Part shown: positions 5,217-21,787 of the stretch, piece by piece | How positions within the stretch are numbered: the first letter of the stretch is position 1 | How the letters are laid out: each line of letters begins with the position of its first letter | IMG/VR virus record: IMGVR_UViG_3300030117_006560 | Location: 1 to 21,787 of that record | DNA: 21,787 bases | DNA from: a virus | Reading direction: 5' to 3' (one strand) | Position numbers and translations under genes: made by a program | The notes under the pieces: model-generated | Told to the model about the DNA's origin: nothing | The model's database searches: none | What the model saw: the letters and a program-made list of their open reading frames with translations, nothing else

Positions 5217-5258
5217 TTATTACATTAACACGCTTATTACATTTTGGCTCGAAGCCAA
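5217..5258 (+). promoter_or_regulatory. direct repeat and hairpin before the repeat-protein gene
   Basis: The 10-mer TTATTACATT occurs at 5217-5226 and again at 5234-5243, 17 nt apart start to start. Immediately after it comes a perfect inverted repeat TTGGCT-CGA-AGCCAA (5244-5258). The ribosome site AAAAGGAG at 5265 and the ATG at 5283 follow. No TTGACA/TATAAT pair is seen. The arrangement could be a phage-specific promoter or operator with a leader stem, but this is inference. Confidence 0.4.
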
Positions 5259-5282
5259 TGGATTAAAAGGAGAAACCAAAGA

Positions 5283-5993
5283 ATGAGCAACAAGAATTTA
5301 CTAAATGAAAATACGGTTCGCCGTTTTATGAAATTGGCTGAGATTGAGCCATTGACGGATCAATTTGTTGGAAAAATCAACGAAGGTCAACATATGCGCA
5401 AAGATGATGAAGATCGAAAAGATGATGACTTAGAAGAAGGCATGCGTAAAGATGACGATCTAGAAGAAGGCCAGCATATGCGTAAAGACGATGACTTAGA
5501 AGAAGGCATGCGTAAAGACGATGACCTTGAAGAAGGCATGGGCATGCGTAAAGATGATGACCTAGATGAGAATTTTGACTTCTTGGATGAAGAACTGGAC
5601 AGTTTTCTAGATGAAGTAGGCGACATGTCGATGCAAGATGATGACGACGACGAGCCATTGGGTGACGAACTAGAAGACGAACCGGTGGGTGACGAACTAG
5701 AAGACGAACCGATGGGTCCCGCTCCAGAAATGGGTGGCTTAGACATGGATGCTTTAGGTGAAATGATCGAAGATGCTGTTATGAACGCTTTGGAAAGCTT
5801 GGTTGATTCTGGAAAGTTATCCGTTGATGTTGATAAAGAGGAAGATGAAGTTGACTTATCTGAAATGGATCATGATCGCGTTGAAGACGACGATAAAATG
5901 ATGAATCCTCCTCCTATGATGGAAGAAGAGGAAGACATGGTTAATGAAGTCGCACGCCGAGTAATGAAGCGTATTATCAATTCTCGTCGGTAA
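5283..5993 (+). CDS. acidic tandem-repeat protein, possible prohead core or virion component
   Basis: 236 residues, extremely acidic. The ATG at 5283 is chosen because AAAAGGAG precedes it; an in-frame TTG at 5244 lies in the upstream hairpin. The protein has three parts. A short N-terminal module is MSNKNLLNENTVRRFMKLAEI. A low-complexity centre holds five MRKDDDLEEG-like units (38-96) and a second repeat GDELEDEP (127-143). A C-terminal helical part ends in a basic patch (VARRVMKRIINSRR). An acidic core with a basic C-terminal helix recalls phage prohead scaffolding or core proteins, and a ClpP-like protease lies 0.5 kb downstream, which would fit head maturation. No homology is recognised with certainty, so the structural role is a guess. 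Confidence 0.75.
   Translation: MSNKNLLNENTVRRFMKLAEIEPLTDQFVGKINEGQHMRKDDEDRKDDDLEEGMRKDDDLEEGQHMRKDDDLEEGMRKDDDLEEGMGMRKDDDLDENFDFLDEELDSFLDEVGDMSMQDDDDDEPLGDELEDEPVGDELEDEPMGPAPEMGGLDMDALGEMIEDAVMNALESLVDSGKLSVDVDKEEDEVDLSEMDHDRVEDDDKMMNPPPMMEEEEDMVNEVARRVMKRIINSRR
5394..5570 (+). repeat. in-gene tandem repeat coding MRKDDDLEEG units
   Basis: About 30-bp units (ATGCGTAAAGAYGATGAC followed by TTAGAAGAAGGC or close variants) are repeated roughly five times. Spacers such as CAGCAT and GGC keep frame. Synonymous third-base differences between units show they are not a very recent expansion. A shorter repeat coding GDELEDEP lies at about 5652-5717. Confidence 0.85.
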
Positions 5994-6481: not shown

Positions 6482-7059
6482 TGGATCTGCAGGCGCCTCC
6501 AGGTCCTCCACCTTTGAGAACAATTGGTCTTTTCGGTGATTTAGATGAGGAAAAAGTTGAGGACGTTTGTTCTGGTCTTCTTTATCTTCGTCACACATCA
6601 TGTTTACTAATGCCCGGTGACAATTCAGAAGAAGAAATAAAGCCTAAACCTGTTACATTTTATGTTTCAACCTGGGGTGGTGATGCCCTTGGCATGTTTG
6701 GTATATATGATTTAATGCGAATGGTTAGAGAAGACTGTCCTATTCATACACACGGCATAGGAAAAGTAATGTCTGCTGGCGTCCTTCTCTTAGCGGCGGG
6801 AACAAAGGGTCAACGTAAAATTGGCAAACATTGTCGCATCATGATGCATGCTGTCCGCGGAGGCCATATGGGTTCTATTCATTCTTTAGAAAATGAAATG
6901 GAAGAGACACGTTGGATTCAAAAACAACATATCAAAGCCCTATGTGAAGAAACTGACCTTACAGAAAGACAACTTAAAAACATGTTAAATAAAAATATGG
7001 ACGTTTATTTGAGTGCAGAAGACGCGGTTAATTATGGAATTGCGGATATCATAGTATAA
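6481..7059 (+). CDS. ClpP-like serine protease
   Basis: 192 residues from ATG 6481, the size of a mature ClpP subunit. The ClpP/crotonase-fold protease has an intact triad: Ser in KVMSAGVLLLAAG, His in RIMMHAVRGG and Asp in NKNMDVYLSAEDAV. The GDLDE and STWGGDALGM segments match the ClpP core. It could form a barrel working with a host Clp ATPase. Alternatively it could serve as a prohead protease, as ClpP-fold enzymes do in several phages; the acidic core-like protein upstream makes this plausible. The ATG has no ribosome site, and the open frame continues upstream to 6391 without a good start. Translation therefore probably depends on the coupled mini-ORF or on slippage at the A8 run. Confidence 0.88.
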   Translation: MDLQAPPGPPPLRTIGLFGDLDEEKVEDVCSGLLYLRHTSCLLMPGDNSEEEIKPKPVTFYVSTWGGDALGMFGIYDLMRMVREDCPIHTHGIGKVMSAGVLLLAAGTKGQRKIGKHCRIMMHAVRGGHMGSIHSLENEMEETRWIQKQHIKALCEETDLTERQLKNMLNKNMDVYLSAEDAVNYGIADIIV

Positions 7060-7074
7060 GGAACTACTTAATAT

Positions 7075-8784
7075 ATGGTTGATATAAATAAAATCGTTTT
7101 GAAGCATGCACCAAAACAATCTGTGCAAAAAATAGATGACATACAAAATCTTTTTGAAGTAATAAATAGCTTATTAGAAGAGACAAAATTATTTGAACGC
7201 GAAATGCTGCCACAAAGAGGTGAAGGTAGAGAGGAAACTCTTACGGCTTCTTCTTTACCCGAAATTGCTGTGTCGGAGCTGGGCTGGGCAGCGCTATCAA
7301 CAGACCAGGGAGAAGGCATCCCATCAGAGCAAAGAGCAGAGCTTGCAAATTTTTTAGATAACATTGCTCAAGGTCAAGATCTACAAGATAAAATTAAGAA
7401 ATTATCAGACTTTTATGACATGGATAAACAAGTAATTGAGAATCTTACCTCTGGTGGCGAGGCGCAAAAAATTAAAAAAACTCTAGCTTACCTCACTTTT
7501 TATAAAACATTAACCAAAATCATCACAAACTTTAACGCGTCTGCCGCAGGTTTTGCCTTTGAGTCTTTTCTTGGTGTGCTTTTAGGCGGTAATCAAATCG
7601 CAACAGGCAATAAAACAATTGCAGACTTAACCTCTGGTGACGGCACGCCAATATCTTTAAAATTGTATGCAGAAAAAACAGTTCATGTTGGTGGCAGTTA
7701 TACTGACTTAGTTAATGACTTGGTAAAAGAGCCTAATTTAATGCAATATGTGGTTACAATGAAAGACCTTGAAGGCGAAGGTTTAAACTTGGAGGGCGCT
7801 CTAAAATTTTATAGATTTAATTTTACATTAGATAATATATTTGACATCCTTGGAACAAGTAGAGAACCATATGTAGTAGCGCTTCCCACTGCATTTGTGG
7901 AAGATCCAGAATCTTTTACAATTGATTTGCCTGAATTAATGACAGCCCAATCAGCGGAAACACAATTCATGGAAAACTTCAAAAATTATATCACTTCCAT
8001 AACAGGTGAAGAAGATTGGGATCAAAGTGTCGTTAAATTCGCACAAGATTCAGGCAATTTAGAAAAATTATTTCAAACTATAAATTATTCAAAAAACAAA
8101 CAAATATTTTCTGCACCTAAAAGACCAGGGTTTTCAAAAATAAGTGTTGGCCAAGGTGGTAGATGGTGGCGTCCAAACCGCAGGGCGCCTCTTATACAAC
8201 TACTCTCACAATTTTCTGAACAAAATGGATATCAAATCCAAAACAATCAAGATGAAAATTATTTAGACGTGGCAGATTTGTTCGCCGTTGTATACAAAGC
8301 AAACCAACAGGTTCAAGAAAAAAACCAAGAGGCTTTCAACGAGCGCCGAGCGTTGGCAAGACGCGCCACAGCCCAGGGTTTCGAGTCGGTTTATGAATCA
8401 GCTGATTTTTATAATACTTTGACACCAGAGCAGAAAAAGATGGCATTGCGAGTTAGTAGAGGATACATCTATACAGATCAATTTAGCATGAACAAAAGAG
8501 ATGTTTTAACAGTTCCAGATAGTGCGTTACCAGAGGGTCAAGAATCTGTAAAGATTGGTGAAATTGAGATAGGAGCTTCTAGAATACAATTTATGCTAAA
8601 CAATGTGCGTGACATAATAAATAATTCTATATTTGAAATCTTCGATAGTCTTAAAGTGTTGACTACAAATATACAAGGCTACTTTGCTGGTGGTCTTGAA
8701 GATGACTCTCTTGCTGATAACGCGATTAAAGCCAGCGCAGAAATTGGCGAAAAAACAGAAAAAATTAAAGCAGCTGGTGATTAA
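7075..8784 (+). CDS. large hypothetical protein with weak PD-(D/E)XK-like pattern
   Basis: 569 residues, not recognised. AAGGAAC at 7058 precedes the ATG. There is no signal peptide or membrane helix. The first ~150 residues are helical. A compact segment follows: GFAFESFLGVLLGG (Glu163), TIADL (Asp184), ISLKLY (Lys196) and GGSYTDLVNDL. Its order E...D...S-L-K resembles the active site of PD-(D/E)XK nucleases. The C-terminal half has a Gly/Arg/Trp stretch (GQGGRWWRPNRRAP) and long helices. It lies between the ClpP-like protease and the groEL promoter, so a virion, packaging or injected protein are all possible. The nuclease idea rests on motif spacing only. No terminator is seen after it. Confidence 0.75.
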   Translation: MVDINKIVLKHAPKQSVQKIDDIQNLFEVINSLLEETKLFEREMLPQRGEGREETLTASSLPEIAVSELGWAALSTDQGEGIPSEQRAELANFLDNIAQGQDLQDKIKKLSDFYDMDKQVIENLTSGGEAQKIKKTLAYLTFYKTLTKIITNFNASAAGFAFESFLGVLLGGNQIATGNKTIADLTSGDGTPISLKLYAEKTVHVGGSYTDLVNDLVKEPNLMQYVVTMKDLEGEGLNLEGALKFYRFNFTLDNIFDILGTSREPYVVALPTAFVEDPESFTIDLPELMTAQSAETQFMENFKNYITSITGEEDWDQSVVKFAQDSGNLEKLFQTINYSKNKQIFSAPKRPGFSKISVGQGGRWWRPNRRAPLIQLLSQFSEQNGYQIQNNQDENYLDVADLFAVVYKANQQVQEKNQEAFNERRALARRATAQGFESVYESADFYNTLTPEQKKMALRVSRGYIYTDQFSMNKRDVLTVPDSALPEGQESVKIGEIEIGASRIQFMLNNVRDIINNSIFEIFDSLKVLTTNIQGYFAGGLEDDSLADNAIKASAEIGEKTEKIKAAGD

Positions 8785-8836: not shown

Positions 8837-10414
8837 ATGAAAAAATTTAGTAACTCGGAGGCTCTTCGTAGTCAGCTTGAGCGAGGTATAGAAACCATTG
8901 CTACTAACGTCGCTTCCACCCTTGGACCAAAAGGTCGCACGGTAATATTACATCAAAAAGATCGCATGCCCATCGCAACAAAAGATGGAGTGACAGTCGC
9001 TAAGTTTATTGATTTACAAAATCCGTTTGAAAATGCTGGTGCCCAAATAGTAAAACAGGCAGCGGAGAAAACAAATCAAGAGGCTGGAGATGGAACTACA
9101 ACCACAACTGTTTTAACTTATGCAATGTATCGGGAAGCACAAAAATATCTAGCTTCAGGCGCCGCACCGGTGGAACTTAAGAAAGGAATGGACTTGGCCG
9201 TTGATTATTTGGTAAAGCAAATAAAAGAAGAGGCAACTCCGATAAAATCTATTGATGATATCGAATCCATCGCAACAATATCAGCGAATGGTGATAATGT
9301 TATCGGCAAACTTATATCAAAGGCAGTTGACTTAGCTGGTAAAGATGGCACGGTGACTATCGAAGAGGCTCGCTCCGTGGAGACTAGTCTAGATCTCGTG
9401 GAAGGTTTTCGCTTTGACTCGGGTTATCTGGCCACTGCTTTTATAAACGATGAGAAGCGTGGTGTGGTAAGCTATGATGAACCTATTATATTAGTGACAG
9501 ATGAAAAGATTGAATCTGTTGAATCGATTCTACCAGCATTAGAGATCGCATCAAGAGAAGGAAGGCCGTTTGTGATTGTAGCAGAGGACATCGAAGGCCA
9601 AGCTTTGGCTGCTCTTATCATGAATGCAATGCGTGGCACAATGAGAGTGTGTGGTGTAAAAGCTCCACGCTATGGCGAGGAAAGAAGAAATATTCTTAAA
9701 GACCTTGCACTCTCAGTTGGTGCAACTTTTATTTCCAGACAGCTAGGTAAAAAACTAAAAGAAGTTAAGTTGACTGATTTTGGAAAGTCAAAGCGGTTAG
9801 AGATAGGAAAAAACTGGACCACTATTCTTGGAGGCAAAGGCTCACTAGATTCTGTTGAGGAACAGATAGAAAAACTAAAAGCCATAATGCAGGACACAGA
9901 GAGTTTACACGAGTGTGATAAAATACAAGAGAGGATTACTCGGTTGGCTTCAGGTATATCAGTCATTCGCGTTGGAGCAGCTACTGAAATCGAGATGATA
10001 GAAAAAACGCACAGGATTGAAGATGCACTGGAGGCTGTCAAGTCAGCACAAGCAGAGGGCGTCTTACCCGGTGGAGGCTCGTTCTTGGTTCAAAACTCTT
10101 CAAAAATGGTAGAGTTTTTAGAAGATAAAGTAGAGAACGAAACACAATCGCTTGGGGTAAAAATAGTTCAAGGTGCATGTAGAGAACCTTTGCGTCAGAT
10201 GTGTCTTAATGCTGGAGAGTCACCAGACATTATAGTTTGTGATGTTGAAAAACAAGAAAAAAACTTTGGCTATGATTTTAGTAGGCACAAAATGGTTGAC
10301 CTTTTAGATCGAGGAGTTATAGATCCAGCTAGAGTAACACGCTGCGCTTTACAAAATTCTGTATCAGTTGCTGGCACACTTATTACATCAAATTTTGCGA
10401 TTGTTGAAGCCTAG
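8837..10414 (+). CDS. groEL: GroEL chaperonin (60 kDa), tail-less
   Basis: ATP-driven group I chaperonin that folds proteins in the cytoplasm. All three domains are present over 525 residues. The equatorial ATP site shows TLGPKGR (29-34), TKDG (D50) and GDGTTTT (D85). The apical domain has FDSGYLATAF and AEDIEGQALAAL. The intermediate Asp appears in EDALEAVKSA before EGVLPGGG. Inter-ring residues in PLRQMCLNAGES are kept. The usual C-terminal GGM repeat tail is missing; the protein ends NFAIVEA. No GroES is seen nearby, so it may use host GroES, a distant phage co-chaperonin, or none, as reported for some large-phage GroELs. Probable clients are abundant phage proteins. Expression is from the consensus promoter directly upstream. 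Confidence 0.97.
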   Translation: MKKFSNSEALRSQLERGIETIATNVASTLGPKGRTVILHQKDRMPIATKDGVTVAKFIDLQNPFENAGAQIVKQAAEKTNQEAGDGTTTTTVLTYAMYREAQKYLASGAAPVELKKGMDLAVDYLVKQIKEEATPIKSIDDIESIATISANGDNVIGKLISKAVDLAGKDGTVTIEEARSVETSLDLVEGFRFDSGYLATAFINDEKRGVVSYDEPIILVTDEKIESVESILPALEIASREGRPFVIVAEDIEGQALAALIMNAMRGTMRVCGVKAPRYGEERRNILKDLALSVGATFISRQLGKKLKEVKLTDFGKSKRLEIGKNWTTILGGKGSLDSVEEQIEKLKAIMQDTESLHECDKIQERITRLASGISVIRVGAATEIEMIEKTHRIEDALEAVKSAQAEGVLPGGGSFLVQNSSKMVEFLEDKVENETQSLGVKIVQGACREPLRQMCLNAGESPDIIVCDVEKQEKNFGYDFSRHKMVDLLDRGVIDPARVTRCALQNSVSVAGTLITSNFAIVEA

Positions 10415-11656: not shown

Positions 11657-12124
11657 ATGTTTGTTTACCCATTGCTGTTTGGTTTAGCATTTGTCTATTC
11701 CAATTTGCTTGAATGGGTGATACACAAATATGTATTTCACGGATTGGGTAAAAAAAAGAAAAGTCCTTTTTCATCACATTGGCATCACCATCACAGAATG
11801 GTGAGAAAAAATGACTATGTGGACAGCAGTTACCTTGGCTTCCCGCCACATCCCTCAGTAACACAAGAGGTAGGTTCGTTAACATTACTTGCTTTAATTC
11901 ATCTACCTCTTTTGTTCGTCAGTTATTTCTTTTATTGTAGTCTTCTTTTCTTCACTTGCCGATATTTTTACATACACAGAAGGTCACACGTAAATCCTGA
12001 GTGGGGTAAAAAGAATTATCCATGGCACTACGATCATCACATGGGTCGAAACCAAAATGCAAACTGGGGTGTGACTTCTCCATTCTGGGATTGGATATTT
12101 AAAACGCGCATTAAGTATCACTAA
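11657..12124 (+). CDS. fatty acid hydroxylase / sterol desaturase superfamily membrane protein
   Basis: 155 residues. The histidine set of the di-iron FA-hydroxylase superfamily is complete: HKYVFH (23-28), HWHHHH (41-46), HRRSH (107-111) and HYDHHMG (124-130). Hydrophobic stretches at about 4-22 and 75-103 would be membrane helices, with the histidine clusters on the cytoplasmic face. The family uses O2 and electrons to hydroxylate or desaturate lipids, sterols or carotenoids. At 155 residues it is a compact member, near the carotene-hydroxylase size. The substrate cannot be read from sequence. It is the only gene between its own promoter (11585) and the 849-residue gene, and is probably an auxiliary gene altering host membrane lipid or pigment. 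Confidence 0.88.
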   Translation: MFVYPLLFGLAFVYSNLLEWVIHKYVFHGLGKKKKSPFSSHWHHHHRMVRKNDYVDSSYLGFPPHPSVTQEVGSLTLLALIHLPLLFVSYFFYCSLLFFTCRYFYIHRRSHVNPEWGKKNYPWHYDHHMGRNQNANWGVTSPFWDWIFKTRIKYH

Positions 12125-16029: not shown

Positions 16030-16947
16030 ATGATGAATTTAGGATACGCTTGTTTAAATATGTCCCTGTCCAACCGTAAGAAGTCGGAGAGGATTACCAC
16101 TAACCGCTCGATGATTAGACGCACGTTTGATCAGAAAGGAGTTGACTACGCTTCAGAGTTAGCACTACAAAACTGCAAAGACCTTTACTCTATCTTACAA
16201 TGGAACGAGGAACACAATATTAAGTTCTTTCGTTTGTCTTCAGAGTTCTTTCCTTGGGCATCCGAGTATGATATCGAAAGCCTAAAAGACTATGAAAAGA
16301 TTATGTATTGGTGCAAGAAAGCAGGTGACTATGCTCGTGAAATGGGGCACAGGTTGACTAGCCACCCCGGACCATTTAACAAACTTACAAGTCCAAAAGA
16401 ACACGTAATAAAGAATACTATTACAGACTTAGAGATACACGCTAAGTTTTTTGATATGTTGGGTCTACCTCGCACACCGTATGCTAAGATGAACATCCAT
16501 GTCGGCGCTCACTACAACAACAAGACAATGGCTCTCGAAAATTTTTGTAAGAACTTCGAGCGTTTATCGCCTGCTGTTCAATCGCGTCTTACCGTCGAGA
16601 ACGACGACAAGGCATCGCTATACAGCACAAAAGAATTATATGATGAAGTTTATAAACGAATCGGCATACCTATCGTTCACGACGTGCACCATCATAAATT
16701 TTGTACTGGTGGTATAGATGATGAAGAAGCTATGCTGACAGCCGCAGTGACTTGGGGTGACGTAACGCCAGTTATCCACTATTCACAGTCGCGTGCTATC
16801 GAGCACAATGATGTACGCATCCGACCCAACGCGCATTCAGATTCTTATTGGGAGCCTGTTGATACTCATGGTCTTGACGTTGATGTAATGTTAGAATGCA
16901 AACACAAAGAAATAGGTTTGTTTAAAATGCGGGAGTTGTTGGGATGA
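16030..16947 (+). CDS. uvsE: UV-damage endonuclease (UVDE / UvsE family)
   Basis: TIM-barrel, metal-dependent nuclease that nicks DNA 5' of UV photoproducts and starts an alternative excision repair. 305 residues. The N-terminus MNLGYACLNMSLS is the conserved first strand, so the start must be ATG 16030 or 16033. Metal ligands are visible: H112 (SHPGPF), H157 (NIHVGAH), E190 (TVEND), D218 and the His cluster after it (VHDVHHHK), H250 (VIHYSQS) and E289 (MLECKHKE). The HNIKFFRLSSEFFPW block is typical. No ribosome site precedes the ATG, which coincides with the predicted +1. UVDE suits a phage exposed to sunlight. It overlaps the next small gene by 4 nt. Confidence 0.95.
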   Translation: MMNLGYACLNMSLSNRKKSERITTNRSMIRRTFDQKGVDYASELALQNCKDLYSILQWNEEHNIKFFRLSSEFFPWASEYDIESLKDYEKIMYWCKKAGDYAREMGHRLTSHPGPFNKLTSPKEHVIKNTITDLEIHAKFFDMLGLPRTPYAKMNIHVGAHYNNKTMALENFCKNFERLSPAVQSRLTVENDDKASLYSTKELYDEVYKRIGIPIVHDVHHHKFCTGGIDDEEAMLTAAVTWGDVTPVIHYSQSRAIEHNDVRIRPNAHSDSYWEPVDTHGLDVDVMLECKHKEIGLFKMRELLG

Positions 16948-17147
16948 TACTTAATAAAGGCGATTTAGTTTGCTATACAGGCCCTCCTTTAATACGTGCC
17001 GAAAATGGATTTGGTCTATCTAAATCTGCTTTAGGTGTGGTGCTTGATCCGTATTTTGGAAAAGATGGTAAATTTGCAGAGGTTCTTTGGTCGCACATGG
17101 AAAACCCGTGGGTGGGTCCGCAATACTGGTTAAAAAAGGAGAAGTAA
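16944..17147 (+). CDS. small 'GDLV' family protein 1 (SH3-like barrel predicted)
   Basis: 67 residues. The N-terminal NKGDLVCYTG strand, a central GVVLDPYF strand, then AEVLWSHMENPWVGPQYWLKK give the pattern shared by seven small proteins in this window: KxGDLV ... G(V/L/M)(V/L) ... V.W ... W ... L. The strands suggest a compact SH3-like or KOW-like barrel. Function is unknown. The ATG overlaps the UVDE stop (ATGA), so it is co-translated with UVDE, with GGGAG at 16931 helping. Confidence 0.78.
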   Translation: MILNKGDLVCYTGPPLIRAENGFGLSKSALGVVLDPYFGKDGKFAEVLWSHMENPWVGPQYWLKKEK

Positions 17148-17148
17148 T

Positions 17149-17247
17149 ATGACCGGAGAGGGGATAGGAGTTCAACTACTCCTTATTATTTTATTTGGAT
17201 TCTTTATCTTGTGGCTCGTAGACAAGGGTGATAAAGATGATGAATGA
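17149..17247 (+). CDS. 32-residue single-pass membrane protein
   Basis: A short ORF with a very strong ribosome site (AAGGAG at 17136) before the ATG. It has a short polar start (MTGEGIG), one hydrophobic helix (VQLLLIILFGFFILWLV), then a charged tail DKGDKDDE. It overlaps the next gene. The codon structure and the ribosome site make it real; function is unknown. It resembles other very small membrane proteins of large phages. Confidence 0.7.
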   Translation: MTGEGIGVQLLLIILFGFFILWLVDKGDKDDE

Positions 17248-17698
17248 TGATTATTTCAAAAAGTGGAACCCTGATATAAACTACCGACAAAACCCGCACC
17301 TTTATAAAGTGGGTCGAGGTCAACAAGGTGTTCTTTTATGTGAACCATATAAGTCAGAGATATGTGCCCATTGGCGTTTTAAAACTCCACCCGAAGCAGA
17401 GGTTAGCAGTCAAAAAATACTAGAAATGTTTTATAACTTTCTGGATATAAATGATTTTGTCGGTGCGGACATGGCAAAAAAGTATTTGCACATGGGCTTT
17501 ACACGCGCCAGACGTTATGCTAATCATAGAGACGGTAGAAAATATAATGATGACGGCACAATAATACCACAAGAGCCTGATGCGCTCACATGCGACAAAG
17601 CCACATCTGCCCGTATTTTTTATGCTTGTTGGAAAGAAGCGAGAGAAGATAAAAAATACTTGACACTTAAAAAAAATCATAAGAAGATGCATGAATGA
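17237..17698 (+). CDS. DUF4385 family protein
   Basis: 153 residues from ATG 17237; a GTG at 17228 and an ATG at 17240 are alternatives, and AAGG at 17224 favours 17237. The blocks NYRQNPHLYKVGRGQQGVL, EPYKSEICAHWRFKTP and NDFVGADMAKKYLHMGFTRARRYANH match DUF4385, a family of unknown function seen in bacteria and phages. It is soluble and basic, with conserved Trp/Tyr/Arg residues. It starts inside the 3' end of the small membrane gene and overlaps the next gene by ATGA, so these genes form one operon with UVDE. Confidence 0.88.
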   Translation: MMNDDYFKKWNPDINYRQNPHLYKVGRGQQGVLLCEPYKSEICAHWRFKTPPEAEVSSQKILEMFYNFLDINDFVGADMAKKYLHMGFTRARRYANHRDGRKYNDDGTIIPQEPDALTCDKATSARIFYACWKEAREDKKYLTLKKNHKKMHE

Positions 17699-17913
17699 AG
17701 GTTGGAGATTTAGTTAAGTACACGAGAGATAATCCGGCCTCGTACGCAGAGTTCCAAACCGGCTTAAAAACTAATGATTTAGGATTAGTTCTTGATGCTC
17801 TCAGCAATGGAACCACCGTATATGTCCACTGGATACGGACAGACCAGGAAGTTTGGATGGGTAAAAAACATTTAGAGGTAATAAGTGGAAGACAAGAAAC
17901 AGAAAGTAATTGA
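17695..17913 (+). CDS. small 'GDLV' family protein 2
   Basis: 72 residues starting MKVGDLVKYTRDN, with DLGLVLDAL, YVHWIRTDQEVWMGKKHLEV in the family positions (central G-L-V strand, V-x-W, W, L). Of the seven family members it resembles that at 16944 most closely. The start overlaps the DUF4385 stop. The C-terminal tail is polar. Function is unknown. Confidence 0.78.
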   Translation: MKVGDLVKYTRDNPASYAEFQTGLKTNDLGLVLDALSNGTTVYVHWIRTDQEVWMGKKHLEVISGRQETESN

Positions 17914-18388
17914 TTATATCAATGAAGTTATCAGTCAGCCCAGGCCAGAGTTTGGTGGTATGCCTGTGTGCCCATTCGCAAAACCAGAACTAGACAATGA
18001 TAAATTGATGATTGAAGTCATCACAGAGGAACAAAATTTAGATTTTCTTATTGACAAATTTATTGATTCAAAATATAGTAGTGCACTGTTGATTTTGGAA
18101 TTACCAGATGGTGAGTCACTTACGATGGAAGAAACAAAACAGTTTCAAACATTCGTTAACAGAATAATAAAAGCAAAAGGAATTAAAGATATCAAGAACA
18201 TATGTTTCAATCCTAACGATTCTGTGTCAATAAATGGCTTTAATCCAAGGGGAAAAGCTCCCTATTTTCTAATTAATATAGCAGGAAGAAAAGAACTGCA
18301 TAAAGCACATAAGTCCTTGACAAAGACAAATTACTATGATAATATGGATGTCAAGTATAAAAGTTTTTTGAAAATTGGAGGTAAATAA
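17885..18388 (+). CDS. hypothetical protein with CPFAK motif, weakly DUF1415-like
   Basis: 167 residues starting with GTG 17885 inside the end of the previous gene. The N-terminal helix is followed by PRPEFGGMPVCPFAKPEL. A strand-rich part comes next, with SSALLILELPDGESLTMEE and ICFNPNDSVSINGFNPRGKAPYFLINIAGRKEL. The CPFA motif and the later 'F.P....NGFN..APYF' order recall DUF1415 proteins, whose function is unknown. The likeness is by motif only. It is soluble, with no signal. GGAGG near its end serves the next gene, which its stop overlaps by one base. Confidence 0.72.
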   Translation: MEDKKQKVIDYINEVISQPRPEFGGMPVCPFAKPELDNDKLMIEVITEEQNLDFLIDKFIDSKYSSALLILELPDGESLTMEETKQFQTFVNRIIKAKGIKDIKNICFNPNDSVSINGFNPRGKAPYFLINIAGRKELHKAHKSLTKTNYYDNMDVKYKSFLKIGGK

Positions 18389-18585
18389 TGGCTGAATGTG
18401 TTTCTTGTGGAGATAATTTTAATCCAAAGAGATATCGTCTTGGTTATAGAACCTGTCTGGAGTGTGGTCAAACCCTGGCACTTCAAGAAAAAGTAAGTAA
18501 GTCTCGTCGCACTGCCCCAGCATTTAACAAGGGTGCTTATCAATACATTACCAATATGGAAATGACAAAGAGCATTGGACGATGA
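18388..18585 (+). CDS. small zinc-finger protein
   Basis: 65 residues. C4xxC7 and C23xxC26 (ECVSCGDN ... RTCLECGQ) form a four-cysteine zinc site. A basic linker SKSRRTAP and the conserved-looking AFNKGAYQYIT follow. The RTCLECG part resembles the zinc finger of DksA/TraR-type proteins, but the coiled coil of those regulators is missing. GGAGG at 18377 gives a strong ribosome site. Nucleic-acid or RNA-polymerase binding is possible. Confidence 0.78.
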   Translation: MAECVSCGDNFNPKRYRLGYRTCLECGQTLALQEKVSKSRRTAPAFNKGAYQYITNMEMTKSIGR

Positions 18586-18782
18586 AAAAAGGCGATTTAG
18601 TACAGCTTTCCAGTTATGGGAACAAACTAAAATGTTTAAAAATGTACAAAGGTTGCGTGGGTATGGTTTCAATTTGTATGCCAGAACGCCAACGAATGAA
18701 ATTTAATGTTGATTGGTTTATCAACGGGAAAGTGAAACGAGAAAGACACACAAGAAAAGATTTAAAAAAAGTAAAAAAATAA
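18582..18782 (+). CDS. small 'GDLV' family protein 3
   Basis: 66 residues: MKKGDLVQLSSYG, GCVGMVSICM, FNVDWFINGKVKRERHTRKDL keep the family pattern, with a much more basic C-terminus (KDLKKVKK) than the others. The start overlaps the zinc-finger stop by ATGA. It is the last gene before a 165-nt interval. Function is unknown. Confidence 0.75.
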   Translation: MKKGDLVQLSSYGNKLKCLKMYKGCVGMVSICMPERQRMKFNVDWFINGKVKRERHTRKDLKKVKK

Positions 18783-18800
18783 ATATGTATATTTCGTAGA

Positions 18801-18938
18801 ATGGTCACAACACACATAACTATGGGTTTGACCTTCAATGGTTCTAGTGAAGGGTGCGTGGATCGCATAGTTGAAATGAACCTAGCCTTCTCTCTGGGTG
18901 AAGAACAAATAGAGGGGATCATTCTTTTTTTTATTTGA
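18801..18938 (+). other. structured interval or small ORF between genes
   Basis: Two readings compete. As RNA, a 7-bp stem AACTATG (18818) / CATAGTT (18866) encloses a 6-bp hairpin CCTTCA (18832) / TGAAGG (18848). The loop of that hairpin has GGTTC (18840), which can pair with GAACC (18878) outside the stem, forming a pseudoknot. An 8-bp G-U-containing stem (18888-18895 with 18911-18918) and a run of eight T follow, like a weak terminator. As protein, ATG 18801 to TGA 18938 is open for 45 residues, but it has no ribosome site. I cannot choose between them; no known riboswitch class is recognised. Confidence 0.4.
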
Positions 18939-18947
18939 CTTTTTAAT

Positions 18948-19160
18948 ATGAATAAAATAGATTATAAATACGAACTTGGTGATTTAGTTGTTGTATCCCG
19001 GTATTATAAAAGCTCGCCAAAGCACTATGGTGTCATAGTTGAACGAGTAGATAAAATGGGTATGCTACATAGACTTTACAAAGTTCACTGGATAGATGGC
19101 GGACACGACAGTCGTTGGATATTTGAAGATGATTTGCTGAAGGTAAACGATGGAGTTTAA
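18948..19160 (+). CDS. small 'GDLV' family protein 4
   Basis: 70 residues with a short N-terminal extension: MNKIDYKYELGDLVVVSRYY, HYGVIVERVD, YKVHWIDGG and SRWIFEDDLLKV. It is the clearest family member together with the one at 21528. No good ribosome site precedes the ATG; the upstream T run may end a separate transcript. The next gene begins 11 nt before its stop. Function is unknown. Confidence 0.75.
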   Translation: MNKIDYKYELGDLVVVSRYYKSSPKHYGVIVERVDKMGMLHRLYKVHWIDGGHDSRWIFEDDLLKVNDGV

Positions 19161-19383
19161 GCTAGGCCAACTTGTAACTGTTTGGGTTGAAGACTTAGAT
19201 CCTATTCATCGTAAAAGATGGAAGGGTAATTATGGCTTCATTGAAGAGTTAATATTCACAGAGCAAAGCAATAGAGATGGAAAACCTAGCTTTATCAAAG
19301 TTTGCTTTCCAGGTTTAGATACTTATAATCATGTAGAGTTTATTCCAGAAAGAATAAAATTAGTGGAGGATAACAATGCCTAA
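19150..19383 (+). CDS. small 'GDLV' family protein 5 (diverged)
   Basis: 77 residues: MEFKLGQLVTVWVEDL, then NYGFIEEL, IKVCFPG and a C-terminal PERIKLVED. It keeps the strand order but has GQLV for GDLV and Cys-Phe at the V-x-W position, so membership is weaker. GAAGG before the ATG lies in the preceding gene. It overlaps the next gene by 8 nt. Confidence 0.68.
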   Translation: MEFKLGQLVTVWVEDLDPIHRKRWKGNYGFIEELIFTEQSNRDGKPSFIKVCFPGLDTYNHVEFIPERIKLVEDNNA

Positions 19384-19723
19384 ATATTATCAAGCTAGCT
19401 TTATCGGTCCTGATAATAAACCATATCAGATATGTGACACTTCTCAAACGACAATCGAGAAAAAAGCAAAAGAGAGGGTTATAAAAGAAAGGGCACCGGT
19501 TTATGTTGAAGCAGTAGAGATACCTCCATTGTCCCTAAAAGGTTTCGTAAATACACTAAATTTAAAGGAGAAACCAACGAGTCGAGAGGTTATCGCTGTC
19601 TTTATACCTAAGAAAACTGACAAAGGTTTTAGAGCAAAAAGATTAAAGATTTCAAAACAAAGGAAAAGAACTAAGAATATATCTTTTCATCCAAACTTTA
19701 AATATTTAACACAGATAGCTTAA
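19376..19723 (+). CDS. hypothetical basic protein
   Basis: 115 residues, strongly basic, not recognised. An N-terminal strand pair (YYQASFIGPDNKPYQIC) is followed by a helix EKKAKERVIKERAPVYVEAV, and the C-terminus is rich in Lys/Arg (RAKRLKISKQRKRTKN). GTGGAGG at 19364 gives a good start. The basic tail suggests nucleic-acid binding. The tRNA begins 6 nt after its stop, so the tRNA is probably processed from this transcript. Confidence 0.72.
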   Translation: MPKYYQASFIGPDNKPYQICDTSQTTIEKKAKERVIKERAPVYVEAVEIPPLSLKGFVNTLNLKEKPTSREVIAVFIPKKTDKGFRAKRLKISKQRKRTKNISFHPNFKYLTQIA

Positions 19724-19729
19724 TCATTT

Positions 19730-19806
19730 GCTCCCGTAGCTCAGTTGGTTAGAGCAGGCGGCTCATAACCGCTCGGTCGTAGGTTCAAGTCCTACCGGGA
19801 GTACCA
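19730..19806 (+). tRNA. tRNA with CAU anticodon, probably tRNA-Ile2 (AUA-decoding)
   Basis: A complete cloverleaf of 77 nt with CCA encoded. The 7-bp acceptor stem GCTCCCG/CGGGAGT starts with a G-U pair. The D arm is GCTC/GAGC, the anticodon stem GGCGG/CCGCT with loop CTCATAA, and the T arm GTAGG/CCTAC with TTCAAGT. It is not an initiator. The body (AGAGCAGGCG...CTCATAA...CGCTCGGTCG, TTCAAGTCC) resembles bacterial tRNA-Ile2. C4-G69 and C5-G68, known TilS determinants, are present, while elongator tRNA-Met of E. coli has U4 and A5. Lysidine modification by host TilS would make it read AUA, a common codon here. Elongator tRNA-Met remains the alternative. Confidence 0.95.
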
Positions 19807-19818
19807 AAGGAGATTATT

Positions 19819-19953
19819 ATGTTTTTTGAAACACCAATATCAGAGTGGTCACACATTGCAGCATTTCTATTGTGTGCCACCATTTCTATACCCATCGCTA
19901 CAATCGGAGCGATTAAACTTTTTATAGCAGTCCAGAGAAGACTGAATAAGTGA
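19819..19953 (+). CDS. 44-residue membrane protein
   Basis: AAAGGAG at 19805, partly built on the 3' end of the tRNA, precedes the ATG. The protein starts MFFETPISEWSHIAAF and has one long hydrophobic helix from about residue 13 to 35, ending in a basic tail (VQRRLNK). Its stop overlaps the next GTG start (GTGA). Function is unknown; it is the first of four small membrane proteins in a row. Confidence 0.65.
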   Translation: MFFETPISEWSHIAAFLLCATISIPIATIGAIKLFIAVQRRLNK

Positions 19954-20105
19954 AGAATTATTATTTTATAGAGGATTATATAAATCCTGATAAGTCACCA
20001 ATGGAGATGTCTTTAGTTTGGATTTTATGTGTCCTGCTTATAGTTGGACTACCTTATTTTTCACATAAGATAGAAAAATATCTTGACAAAGAAAAAAAAG
20101 ATTAA
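19950..20105 (+). CDS. 51-residue single-pass membrane protein
   Basis: Starts with GTG overlapping the previous stop. A polar N-terminus (MKNYYFIEDYINPDKSP) is followed by one membrane helix (MSLVWILCVLLIVGLPYF) and a charged tail (HKIEKYLDKEKKD). The bases coding Leu-Asp-Lys near its end are also the -35 element of the next promoter. There is no strong ribosome site, so it depends on coupling. Function is unknown. Confidence 0.58.
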   Translation: MKNYYFIEDYINPDKSPMEMSLVWILCVLLIVGLPYFSHKIEKYLDKEKKD

Positions 20106-20111
20106 TATAAT
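20083..20111 (+). promoter_or_regulatory. consensus sigma-70 promoter
   Basis: TTGACA (20083-20088), 17-nt spacer, TATAAT (20106-20111): a perfect match. The -35 lies within the end of the upstream small gene. +1 is expected near 20118, with AAAAGGAG in the leader before ATG 20145. Confidence 0.9.
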
Positions 20112-20144
20112 ACCTATATCAATGTTTTTCCAAAAGGAGAGGAT

Positions 20145-20327
20145 ATGAATAAAGCAATGATTTCACGGACGTGTTTTATCGCGTCTCTAGTATCTGTAGC
20201 ATTTTCTATTGCTACGTGGACGATGGTTGGCGACAGCGATCCTGCTCACGCCGAAAGATTCGGTATCTTCGTTGGGCTTTGGGCACCAACATTAATGGCA
20301 ATGGCTAACCATTTCAAAGGAGATTAA
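20145..20327 (+). CDS. 60-residue membrane protein
   Basis: Two hydrophobic segments (about 8-28 and 40-55) separated by a short polar loop VGDSDPAHAERFG. A strong ribosome site AAAAGGAGAGG lies directly upstream, and it is the first gene after a perfect promoter, so it is probably well expressed. Its end carries AAAGGAG for the next gene. It is not recognised; holin-like topology is possible but holins cannot be identified by topology alone. Confidence 0.75.
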   Translation: MNKAMISRTCFIASLVSVAFSIATWTMVGDSDPAHAERFGIFVGLWAPTLMAMANHFKGD

Positions 20328-20330
20328 AAA

Positions 20331-20498
20331 GTGAACCTTTATGAATTTGTCATGATGGTTTTCTACGTTGGTTTTTGTACTGGTATTTTATCTCTTGGTG
20401 TTCATTTTACTGAAAAAGCGAGAGCTAGAGAATATGATGCAAAGGCAAGAAAATTAGAAGTTGTTATGACTAATTTAGAAAACCCCCTTGACAAGTAA
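20331..20498 (+). CDS. 55-residue single-pass membrane protein
   Basis: GTG start 9 nt after AAAGGAG. One helix (FVMMVFYVGFCTGILSLGV) is followed by a charged helical tail (TEKARAREYDAKARKLEVV). The last codons (CCC CTT GAC AAG TAA) overlap the -35 of the hsp20 promoter, just as in the gene at 19950. It is probably co-transcribed with the gene at 20145. Function is unknown. Confidence 0.65.
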   Translation: MNLYEFVMMVFYVGFCTGILSLGVHFTEKARAREYDAKARKLEVVMTNLENPLDK

Positions 20499-20517
20499 AA
20501 TAAGTTTATTATATTAT
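20488..20517 (+). promoter_or_regulatory. sigma-70 promoter for hsp20
   Basis: TTGACA (20488-20493), 18-nt spacer, TATTAT (20512-20517); TATATT at 20510 with a 16-nt spacer is an alternative. The inverted repeat at 20517-20555 covers the expected start near 20524. Confidence 0.8.
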
Positions 20518-20555
20518 AACCATGTTGCCACCCAGTGTAGGGAGTAACATGGTTA
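20517..20555 (+). promoter_or_regulatory. perfect 10-bp inverted repeat at the hsp20 transcription start
   Basis: TAACCATGTT (20517-20526) and AACATGGTTA (20546-20555) are perfect complements around a 19-nt centre, which holds a small CCC/GGG stem. The left arm directly follows the -10, and the predicted +1 falls within it. As DNA it looks like an operator; as RNA only part of the left arm would be transcribed unless initiation is earlier than expected. It is not the CIRCE sequence. Confidence 0.65.
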
Positions 20556-20582
20556 GTCTCGCTTACAAAAGGAGAAAATTTT

Positions 20583-21017
20583 ATGACTAATATTACAAAT
20601 TATAAACACCCAAGCCTATTGGGTATGAACGTGGTTGACGGATTGTTCGACAGTTTCTTTGTGGATTTTCCGCGACATCTAAAACAAACCACGCAAGGTT
20701 ATCCAGTTGCAGATATTTACAGTGATGACGATGGAAATACTGTAATGGAGTTTGCTCTAGCTGGTTTCAGTCGAGAGGAATTAAATATAGATATTAAGCC
20801 AGATAAACGCAGTATCACGGTTTCAGCCGAGACTAATACTGGTGATGATGGTCCTGCTCAACGTAGGATTGCACGTCGTTCATTTACGAAGACGTATACA
20901 AACTACGATAATAATCTTGACCTTTCAAACACTTCCGCTCATTATGAGAATGGCTTACTTACAGTAACCGTTCCTCAACGTGCAGAAATGCAACCTCTTT
21001 CTATTTCAATCTCCTAA
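20583..21017 (+). CDS. Hsp20 / alpha-crystallin small heat-shock protein
   Basis: 144 residues. ATP-independent holdase that keeps unfolding proteins soluble. The alpha-crystallin domain runs from about residue 40 to 135: PVADIYSDDDGNTVMEFALAGFSREELNI, DIKPDKRSITVSAE and AHYENGLLTVTVPQ, the last being the usual 'A.y.nGlL.v.iP' block. The C-terminus has an I-x-I element (LSISIS) used in oligomer assembly. AAAAGGAGAAAA precedes the ATG. It forms a single-gene unit between its own promoter with dyad and a strong terminator. Hsp20 genes recur in T4-like marine phages, where they are thought to help capsid assembly or host survival. Confidence 0.95.
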   Translation: MTNITNYKHPSLLGMNVVDGLFDSFFVDFPRHLKQTTQGYPVADIYSDDDGNTVMEFALAGFSREELNIDIKPDKRSITVSAETNTGDDGPAQRRIARRSFTKTYTNYDNNLDLSNTSAHYENGLLTVTVPQRAEMQPLSISIS

Positions 21018-21032
21018 TATTGTTTGACTTTT

Positions 21033-21063
21033 AATCGGGGTAGTTTTTCTGCCCCGATTTTTC
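21033..21063 (+). terminator. rho-independent terminator after hsp20
   Basis: An 11-bp stem AATCGGGGTAG / CTGCCCCGATT (one G-U pair) with a TTTTT loop, followed by TTTTC. It ends the hsp20 transcript immediately before the next -35 element. It is the clearest terminator in the window. Confidence 0.93.
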
Positions 21064-21092
21064 TTGACACCTAATAAAAACTAAAATATAAT
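21064..21092 (+). promoter_or_regulatory. consensus sigma-70 promoter
   Basis: TTGACA (21064-21069), 17-nt spacer, TATAAT (21087-21092): a perfect match abutting the hsp20 terminator. +1 near 21099 gives a leader of about 20 nt. It probably drives 21119 onwards, including the tRNA-Leu. Confidence 0.9.
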
Positions 21093-21118
21093 TAGTATAT
21101 AAAGTGATGGAGAAAGAT

Positions 21119-21298
21119 ATGAGAACTTACAAAATGCAGTGGCGTCACACAGATCAACGCTGGATTGATGACTACTCAAATGGAAATGAGCAGCAAGTAA
21201 TCCAGAAAGCGATATGGAGAAAAGATAGAAACCCTAACCAATATATCCGCGTCGTATTGGAGGAAAATGGTAGGCAGATGCCTGTCTTTTTTGCCTAA
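21119..21298 (+). CDS. hypothetical small protein
   Basis: 59 residues; ATG 21119 is chosen because GGAG at 21109 has the right spacing, while the in-frame GTG 21104 and ATG 21107 lie on top of that site. MRTYKMQWRHTDQRW, a helix NEQQVIQKAIWRKD and a closing strand IRVVLEENGRQMPVFF suggest a small alpha/beta fold. It is not recognised. Its stop overlaps the next ATG (TAATG). Confidence 0.72.
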   Translation: MRTYKMQWRHTDQRWIDDYSNGNEQQVIQKAIWRKDRNPNQYIRVVLEENGRQMPVFFA

Positions 21299-21531
21299 TG
21301 AAGATTGGAGAGCTAGTAGTCTGGAAAGAGTGCATTCGAGGCGAGCAGACCGACTCGTTCAGAGAGACTGTCGGAATGCTCACTCGTATCTTGAATGTTG
21401 ATGTGGATGGCTACAACATATTAGAGATAAAAACTTTTCAAGGTGAGACTATTTTAGCGCCAGGATACGAGTGTTATTCATGGTCTTGCCCTACTAACCC
21501 TGGATGTCATTGCGGAGCCTGCCACCCATGA
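21298..21531 (+). CDS. small 'GDLV' family protein 6 with Cys-rich tail
   Basis: 77 residues: MKIGELVVWKEC, TVGMLTRIL and YNILEIKTFQGE keep the first strands of the family. The C-terminus is unusual: CYSWSCPTNPGCHCGACHP, with five cysteines plus His in about 20 residues, suited to bind a metal. The start overlaps the previous stop by one base and the end overlaps the next gene by ATGA. The added tail sets it apart from the other members; function is unknown. Confidence 0.75.
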   Translation: MKIGELVVWKECIRGEQTDSFRETVGMLTRILNVDVDGYNILEIKTFQGETILAPGYECYSWSCPTNPGCHCGACHP

Positions 21532-21752
21532 AAGTCGGTGATTTAGTTAGATTAACTGATAGCGAATGTTATCATCCAGATGATGATTTTACACATTATG
21601 GTGTGTTATTGAAAATAGAAAGAGATTATTTTGGTATCGGAGGAGGATATATTAATCGAGACGAAGGTTGTCATATTAGATGGTCAAACAACACATGGTC
21701 TGTTGAGCCAATACAGTTTATAGAAAAAGTATATGCCGATGTGGTGGAATAG
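21528..21752 (+). CDS. small 'GDLV' family protein 7, overlapping a tRNA
   Basis: 74 residues; the ATG at 21528 overlaps the upstream stop and begins MKVGDLVRLTDS as in protein 2, so the longer frame from 21504 is rejected. HYGVLLKIE, CHIRWSNNTWSVEPIQFIEK fit the family. Its last six codons and stop lie inside the tRNA-Leu gene (from 21735). The tRNA and the protein therefore share bases, and RNase P cleavage would cut the message within the coding region. Confidence 0.75.
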   Translation: MKVGDLVRLTDSECYHPDDDFTHYGVLLKIERDYFGIGGGYINRDEGCHIRWSNNTWSVEPIQFIEKVYADVVE

Positions 21753-21787
21753 GTAGACACAACAGACTTAAAATCTGTTGAGCTTTT
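21735..21787 (+). tRNA. tRNA-Leu (UAA), 3' part beyond window
   Basis: GCCGATG acceptor strand, then TGGTGGAATAGGTAGACAC (typical leucine D arm), anticodon stem ACAGA/TCTGT and loop CTTAAAA give anticodon UAA. The start of the long variable arm follows (TGAGCTTTT). The T arm and acceptor 3' strand are outside the window. It overlaps the upstream coding sequence by 18 nt. Confidence 0.9.

Follow-up and report, generated by a model that had tools for sequence, protein, structure and literature searches.

In integrons, interchangeable cassettes of one gene each lie in arrays and share a boundary; integrons also have the attC recombination site and the IntI integrase. The boundary sequences of lambdoid phages and the PeaT loops of T-even phages are short conserved gene-border sequences permitting modular exchange, and we know of no dual coding in them nor of a tie to one protein fold. 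In mycobacteriophages, a conserved 13 bp element (SAS/ESAS) is found upstream of many unrelated small genes, at translation starts (PMC3203893). At the protein level, Nip of phage Phi3T, a protein of 279 aa with two SH3-like domains and an HU-like dimerisation domain, is a counter-defence factor that blocks a host defence system (PMC11984713).

The arrays of small phage genes described here resemble integrons in that apparently exchangeable one-gene cassettes have a common boundary, but unlike in integrons, this boundary is protein-coding on both sides. Like SAS/ESAS, the boundary element, here called the joint, is short, conserved and repeated at phage gene starts; whereas SAS precedes the starts of genes from different families, the joint is coding in two frames and the array genes belong to one fold family. 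As a conserved gene-border element for modular exchange, it is also similar to lambdoid boundary sequences and PeaT loops. The open-access papers searched contained no description of a joint that codes in two frames or of barrel genes arrayed in this way, and looking there for the motif and for phage paralogues in tandem brought up nothing. With a probability of roughly 0.6, these genes are read here as a family of small barrels, carried in shuffling arrays of joint-linked cassettes, that would form a repertoire of single-domain binding proteins.

The window, the whole stretch of DNA analysed, covers one virus record completely (21,787 bases) and encodes DNA polymerase III alpha, a dUTPase, an IMPDH-type protein, ClpP, UvdE and HSP20. 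It also codes for a protein built with repeated MRKDDDLEEG units (5244-5993), a phage GroEL with at most about 42% identity to its best phage-collection matches (8837-10411), a phage protein with a fatty acid hydroxylase domain (11657-12124) and an 849-aa protein without a relative among 50,697 phage records (12159-14708). Three close relatives were found, namely G001 (107 kb), G002 (26 kb) and G003 (85 kb). Since a tail sheath, a T4-type major head protein and a large terminase are encoded in G001, this relative is a contractile-tailed phage.

Seven short genes had been proposed in the initial annotation as one repeatedly duplicated family, and all seven open reading frames are present on the + strand, at 16944-17147 (67 aa), 17695-17913 (72 aa), 18582-18782 (66 aa, pI 10.2), 18948-19160 (70 aa), 19150-19383 (77 aa), 21298-21531 (77 aa, with a Cys-rich tail) and 21528-21752 (74 aa). 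The further proposal that each is coupled to a different neighbour was right for 16944 (4-nt overlap with the UvdE gene), 17695, 18582 and 21298, which overlap or abut unrelated upstream genes, but not for the pairs 18948/19150 and 21298/21528, coupled to each other by overlaps of 11 and 4 nt, respectively. The start of 21528 is an internal ATG of a reading frame that opens at 21504. A tRNA-Leu gene starts within 21735-21787, its 5' end being formed by the last codons of 21528 (ADVVE-stop); this 18-nt overlap is present in G001 and G002 and absent in G003.

The other members are 16-35% identical to the first protein, so the seven are, to judge by sequence, old paralogues without recent duplication. 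The order of most of them is kept in the three relatives: orthologues of 17695 and, in synteny, of 19150 were found in all three, whereas that of 16944 was found in G002 and was not recovered in G003 in this comparison. Past the tRNA-Leu gene, where the window record stops, the relatives have more family members in a tighter cluster, and the array in all three starts just beyond this end. The window carries a stable, dispersed branch of the array family, of which 17695 is, by its sequence, the clearest member.

Arrays were searched for in a viral collection with the exact DNA pattern for MKVGDLV, then with an HMM and then with a joint scan. The pattern gave at least 120 loci, in which the HMM found at least 728 members, and the joint scan raised this to at least 1,721 members in at least 184 loci; none of the reported matches was a decoy. 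In IMG/VR, there were at least 1,652 members in at least 160 loci with at least three each, some of these loci being neighbouring pieces of one contig. Nearly all genes of the first set of loci (694 of 697) are on the majority strand of their own locus. Among the matches listed, the densest array packs 39 members into 14.8 kb, and array members clustered at 50% identity into 298 groups and 677 singletons. Repeated duplication and diversification, suspected earlier from the seven genes, is therefore strongly supported, at a scale larger than could be seen in the window.

The arrays occur in mostly uncultured phages. In phage isolates, neither tblastn, run with two members and also with a consensus made by hand, nor blastn with the joint found a convincing relative; Salmonella matches of 19 bases at E 0.5 were rejected. 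Half-joints were also found in 36 bacterial or archaeal genome stretches, with several members in three only (L267 at 6659-7862, L248 and L241), on contigs assigned to WOR-3, Acidiferrobacteraceae and Flavobacteriales MAGs. These may be prophage or misbinned phage, and the remaining stretches were taken as chance or unrelated. A 254-aa reading frame in G001 that resembled a domain fusion was discarded, since an N-filled assembly gap (XXXX) precedes its GDLV.

Neighbouring array genes are connected through a joint of about 35 bp, TTGGAGGTGATCAGTGAAAGTCGGTGATTTGGT, which reads LEVISESR-stop in the upstream frame and provides the ribosome-binding site, the start and MKVGDLV in the downstream frame. 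In its consensus, TTGGAGGTgATcAGTGAAAGTCGGTGATTTgGTaAaa, the upstream residues L-E-V-I-S-E-S-R-stop are superimposed on GGAGG, a GTG start and K-V-G-D-L-V. Exactly 14 nt of overlap (register -14) were found in 712 of 1,245 neighbouring pairs among the matches listed, and a strict 25-base joint pattern is present in 92 IMG/VR stretches. The [SN]E[SGN]R tail ends 516 of the 712 genes followed by a family gene at -14, compared with 3 of 295 where the next family gene lies in a different close register and 47 of 645 with none following. Being nearly confined to -14-coupled genes, the tail is a by-product of the joint and is dispensable for the fold.

The window genes contain no 14-nt joint and one half-joint, TTAGAGGTAATAAGTG (17872-17887, + strand), in the same register as the array joint TTGGAGGTGATCAGTG. 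It lies near the end of 17695 (HLEVISGR...), where the LEVIS codons also contain the Shine-Dalgarno sequence and the GTG from which a gene outside the family (17885-18388) starts. True -14 joints are present in G001 and G002. In G001 and G003, a single base change (GGC for GGT) abolishes the shared stop, so the upstream protein is three residues longer.

In the proposed mechanism, the LEV codons of the last strand of the upstream protein would act as the ribosome-binding site of the downstream gene, while the downstream start region would supply the upstream protein with its stop codon (TGA) and SESR tail. Because the joint is dual-coding, cassettes could be placed in any order without losing termination or translational coupling. 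Whole cassettes would then be added, removed or swapped when joints recombine with one another.

Comparison of arrays shows the gain and loss of whole cassettes, with chimeric joints. Some related arrays differ by single cassettes (L055/L062, L157/L173 and L188/L193) and others hold common cassettes in changed order (L105, L203, L164 and L195). Between arrays, 57-79% of homology-block ends fall at joints, against 18-24% at random. In the control with non-family genes of the same contigs, 14.5% of breaks were at gene starts against 5-6% at random, a lower absolute frequency with a similar enrichment (2.4-2.7-fold). Since non-family starts are also enriched, breakpoint clustering by itself was not accepted as proof of recombination at joints. 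Clean indels weigh more: of 44, 26 begin as well as end within a joint and contain 1-9 family starts. In the printed examples, the short form's joint consists of the left half of one long-form joint and the right half of the other. The repeats at the breakpoints are mostly 19-51 bp in family regions and of mixed length in 11 non-family indels. One chimeric case, L062/L055, has a 176-bp insert with 100% identity on both flanks and could in principle be an assembly effect, as the sample numbers of the two records are adjacent; identity in the remaining printed cases is 81-98%.

These data strongly suggest that recombination takes place at joints, and we infer that it is the main engine of cassette turnover. 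It could alternatively be thought that the arrays are a by-product of tandem duplication of a compact coupled gene and of ordinary phage mosaicism at gene boundaries, the joint being retained solely because overlapping start, stop and Shine-Dalgarno sequences have to work. The enrichment at non-family gene starts fits this explanation, as does the SESR tail, which arises mechanically from the KVGD codons in the other frame. However, the chimeric joints with long shared stretches, the whole-cassette inserts, the same cassettes in reordered arrays and the single register (-14) that outnumbers all others argue against it, and it is considered unlikely.

Regarding the fold, the initial annotation had suggested a small SH3/KOW-like barrel from a sequence pattern. 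The AlphaFold models of two members, 18948 (pLDDT 79.8) and the divergent, Cys-tailed 21298 (pLDDT 84.1), bear this out, both predicting a five-stranded barrel of SH3 topology. Structural neighbours of the models include Tudor, chromo-barrel, PWWP, KOW, NusG, eS4, R67 dihydrofolate reductase and HspQ, and since their Z-scores are about 7-9, only the fold class is secure. HspQ, a Lon specificity factor (5ycq, Z 7.8, rmsd 2.6 over 58 residues), is level with many other barrels. Among the fold matches in BFVD is a series of accessions with similar numbers (A0A516...). With a profile of 80 array members, the best solved-structure match was the KOW region of Spt5 (E 3.9e-5), followed by uL24c (E 0.024) and, weakly, NusG (E 0.25).

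The fold itself is already known. A G-D-x-V first strand, a G-x-V second strand and a five-stranded barrel are common to the phage family and to KOW/SH3-like small barrels (Spt5, NusG and uL24; KOW, DUF1918, MSSS and Chromo in Pfam), but the phage proteins are unlike these in being encoded by stand-alone genes of 50-80 aa in arrays. No Pfam model matched the window members at its curated cut-off, with sub-threshold matches only; other family members gave weak, scattered matches. For DUF1918 (PF08940), the best score was 17.6 bits against a curated cut-off of 24 bits, and KOW (PF00467) matched no window member and one of 43 members tested, at E 0.094. PHROGs likewise gave sub-threshold matches for single window proteins and isolated weak ones elsewhere.

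The family is under purifying selection. With one pair per cluster and the joint codons left out, the median dN/dS over 136 clusters was 0.25, with 134 of them not above 1, and pN/pS of the window genes against their orthologues was 0.08-0.52 (0.08-0.21 for 18582). These low values indicate that the proteins are maintained. Isoelectric points are widely spread (deciles 4.5-9.8), which leaves roughly half of the family without a basic pI and disfavours one common nucleic-acid role; the spread speaks for different binding partners for different members.

This bears on a second alternative, in which the proteins would be KOW-like regulators that bind nucleic acid, RNA polymerase or the ribosome and redirect host transcription or translation. 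The profile matches to Spt5, uL24c and NusG and the structural matches to KOW domains, NusG and eS4 are consistent with such a role. However, SH3-like barrels broadly match one another, about half of the family lacks a basic charge and no common surface motif was recognised outside the fold core. A regulatory role of this kind is considered unlikely.

The seven window proteins also had to be distinguished from several families of short SH3-like proteins that had converged on K-x-G-D-L-V. The pattern [KELIV]x?G[DEQ]LV was scanned over the first 20 residues of the 74 window reading frames of at least 50 aa. It matched exactly the seven, whereas 2,000 rounds of residue shuffling gave 0.03 matches on average and never more than 2; within the window, the N-terminal K-x-G-[DEQ]-L-V motif reported earlier is thus confined to these genes. 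Aligned, they share G6, L8, V9 and G42, counted along the first protein. In addition, all 130 window reading frames were scored with an outside profile, trained on 400 members from phages not in the window's own group, and the top seven were the same genes. Four are significant, namely 17695 (E 1.6e-11), 21528 (2e-8), 18582 (8.5e-7) and 18948 (9e-7). The other three, 21298 (0.002), 16944 (0.005) and 19150 (0.54, seventh of the 130), score below the best decoy (9e-4), and their own E-values being insufficient, they were assigned by rank and synteny jointly, with the fold in addition for 21298. The weakest by sequence, 19150, is included in the A1 profile. These three weak scores are what convergence would predict, but the ranking of all seven, the significance of four against distant phages and the barrel predicted for 21298 make it very unlikely, and we take the seven to form a single family of very small beta-barrels.

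Finally, oligomeric small-molecule binders or sponges, like the ligand-binding tetramer pore of R67 dihydrofolate reductase, are highly improbable: although this enzyme ranks with the best matches by structure (Z 8.5-8.8, rmsd 2.1-2.3), its lead over unrelated barrels is below 1, small barrels commonly reach Z near 8, and members vary widely in length and charge.

Returning to the reading of the family as a shuffling repertoire, neither a catalytic motif nor an accessory domain was recognised in its members, and we infer a set of small binding modules. Each protein may have its own target in the host or in a rival element, as part of a changing repertoire; the members are probably factors of host takeover or counter-defence. 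The adaptor or host-takeover role suggested earlier for the seven window genes is plausible. Nip has the SH3-like domain and phage origin in common with the array proteins, and is larger and multi-domain where they are single-domain; its SH3-like domains make a counter-defence function a reasonable idea but are no evidence of relationship. It is proposed more tentatively, as a possibility short of even odds, that the 35-bp joint is a universal connector in which last strand, ribosome-binding site, start and stop coincide, so that phages could put together, by recombination, arbitrary rows of translationally coupled cassettes against host defences.

Large phages are rich in short genes whose function is unknown, and in 14 records of 62-293 kb a single fold accounts for 12-36 detected copies per record, with a simple rule for how these small genes are joined. 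If joints drive the exchange, phages would own a standardised way of swapping small effectors, as integrons provide for bacterial genes, and the arrays would offer a catalogue in which proteins for counter-defence and host takeover could be sought. If the joint is indeed a universal connector, this would give phages a fast-evolving repertoire against host defences.
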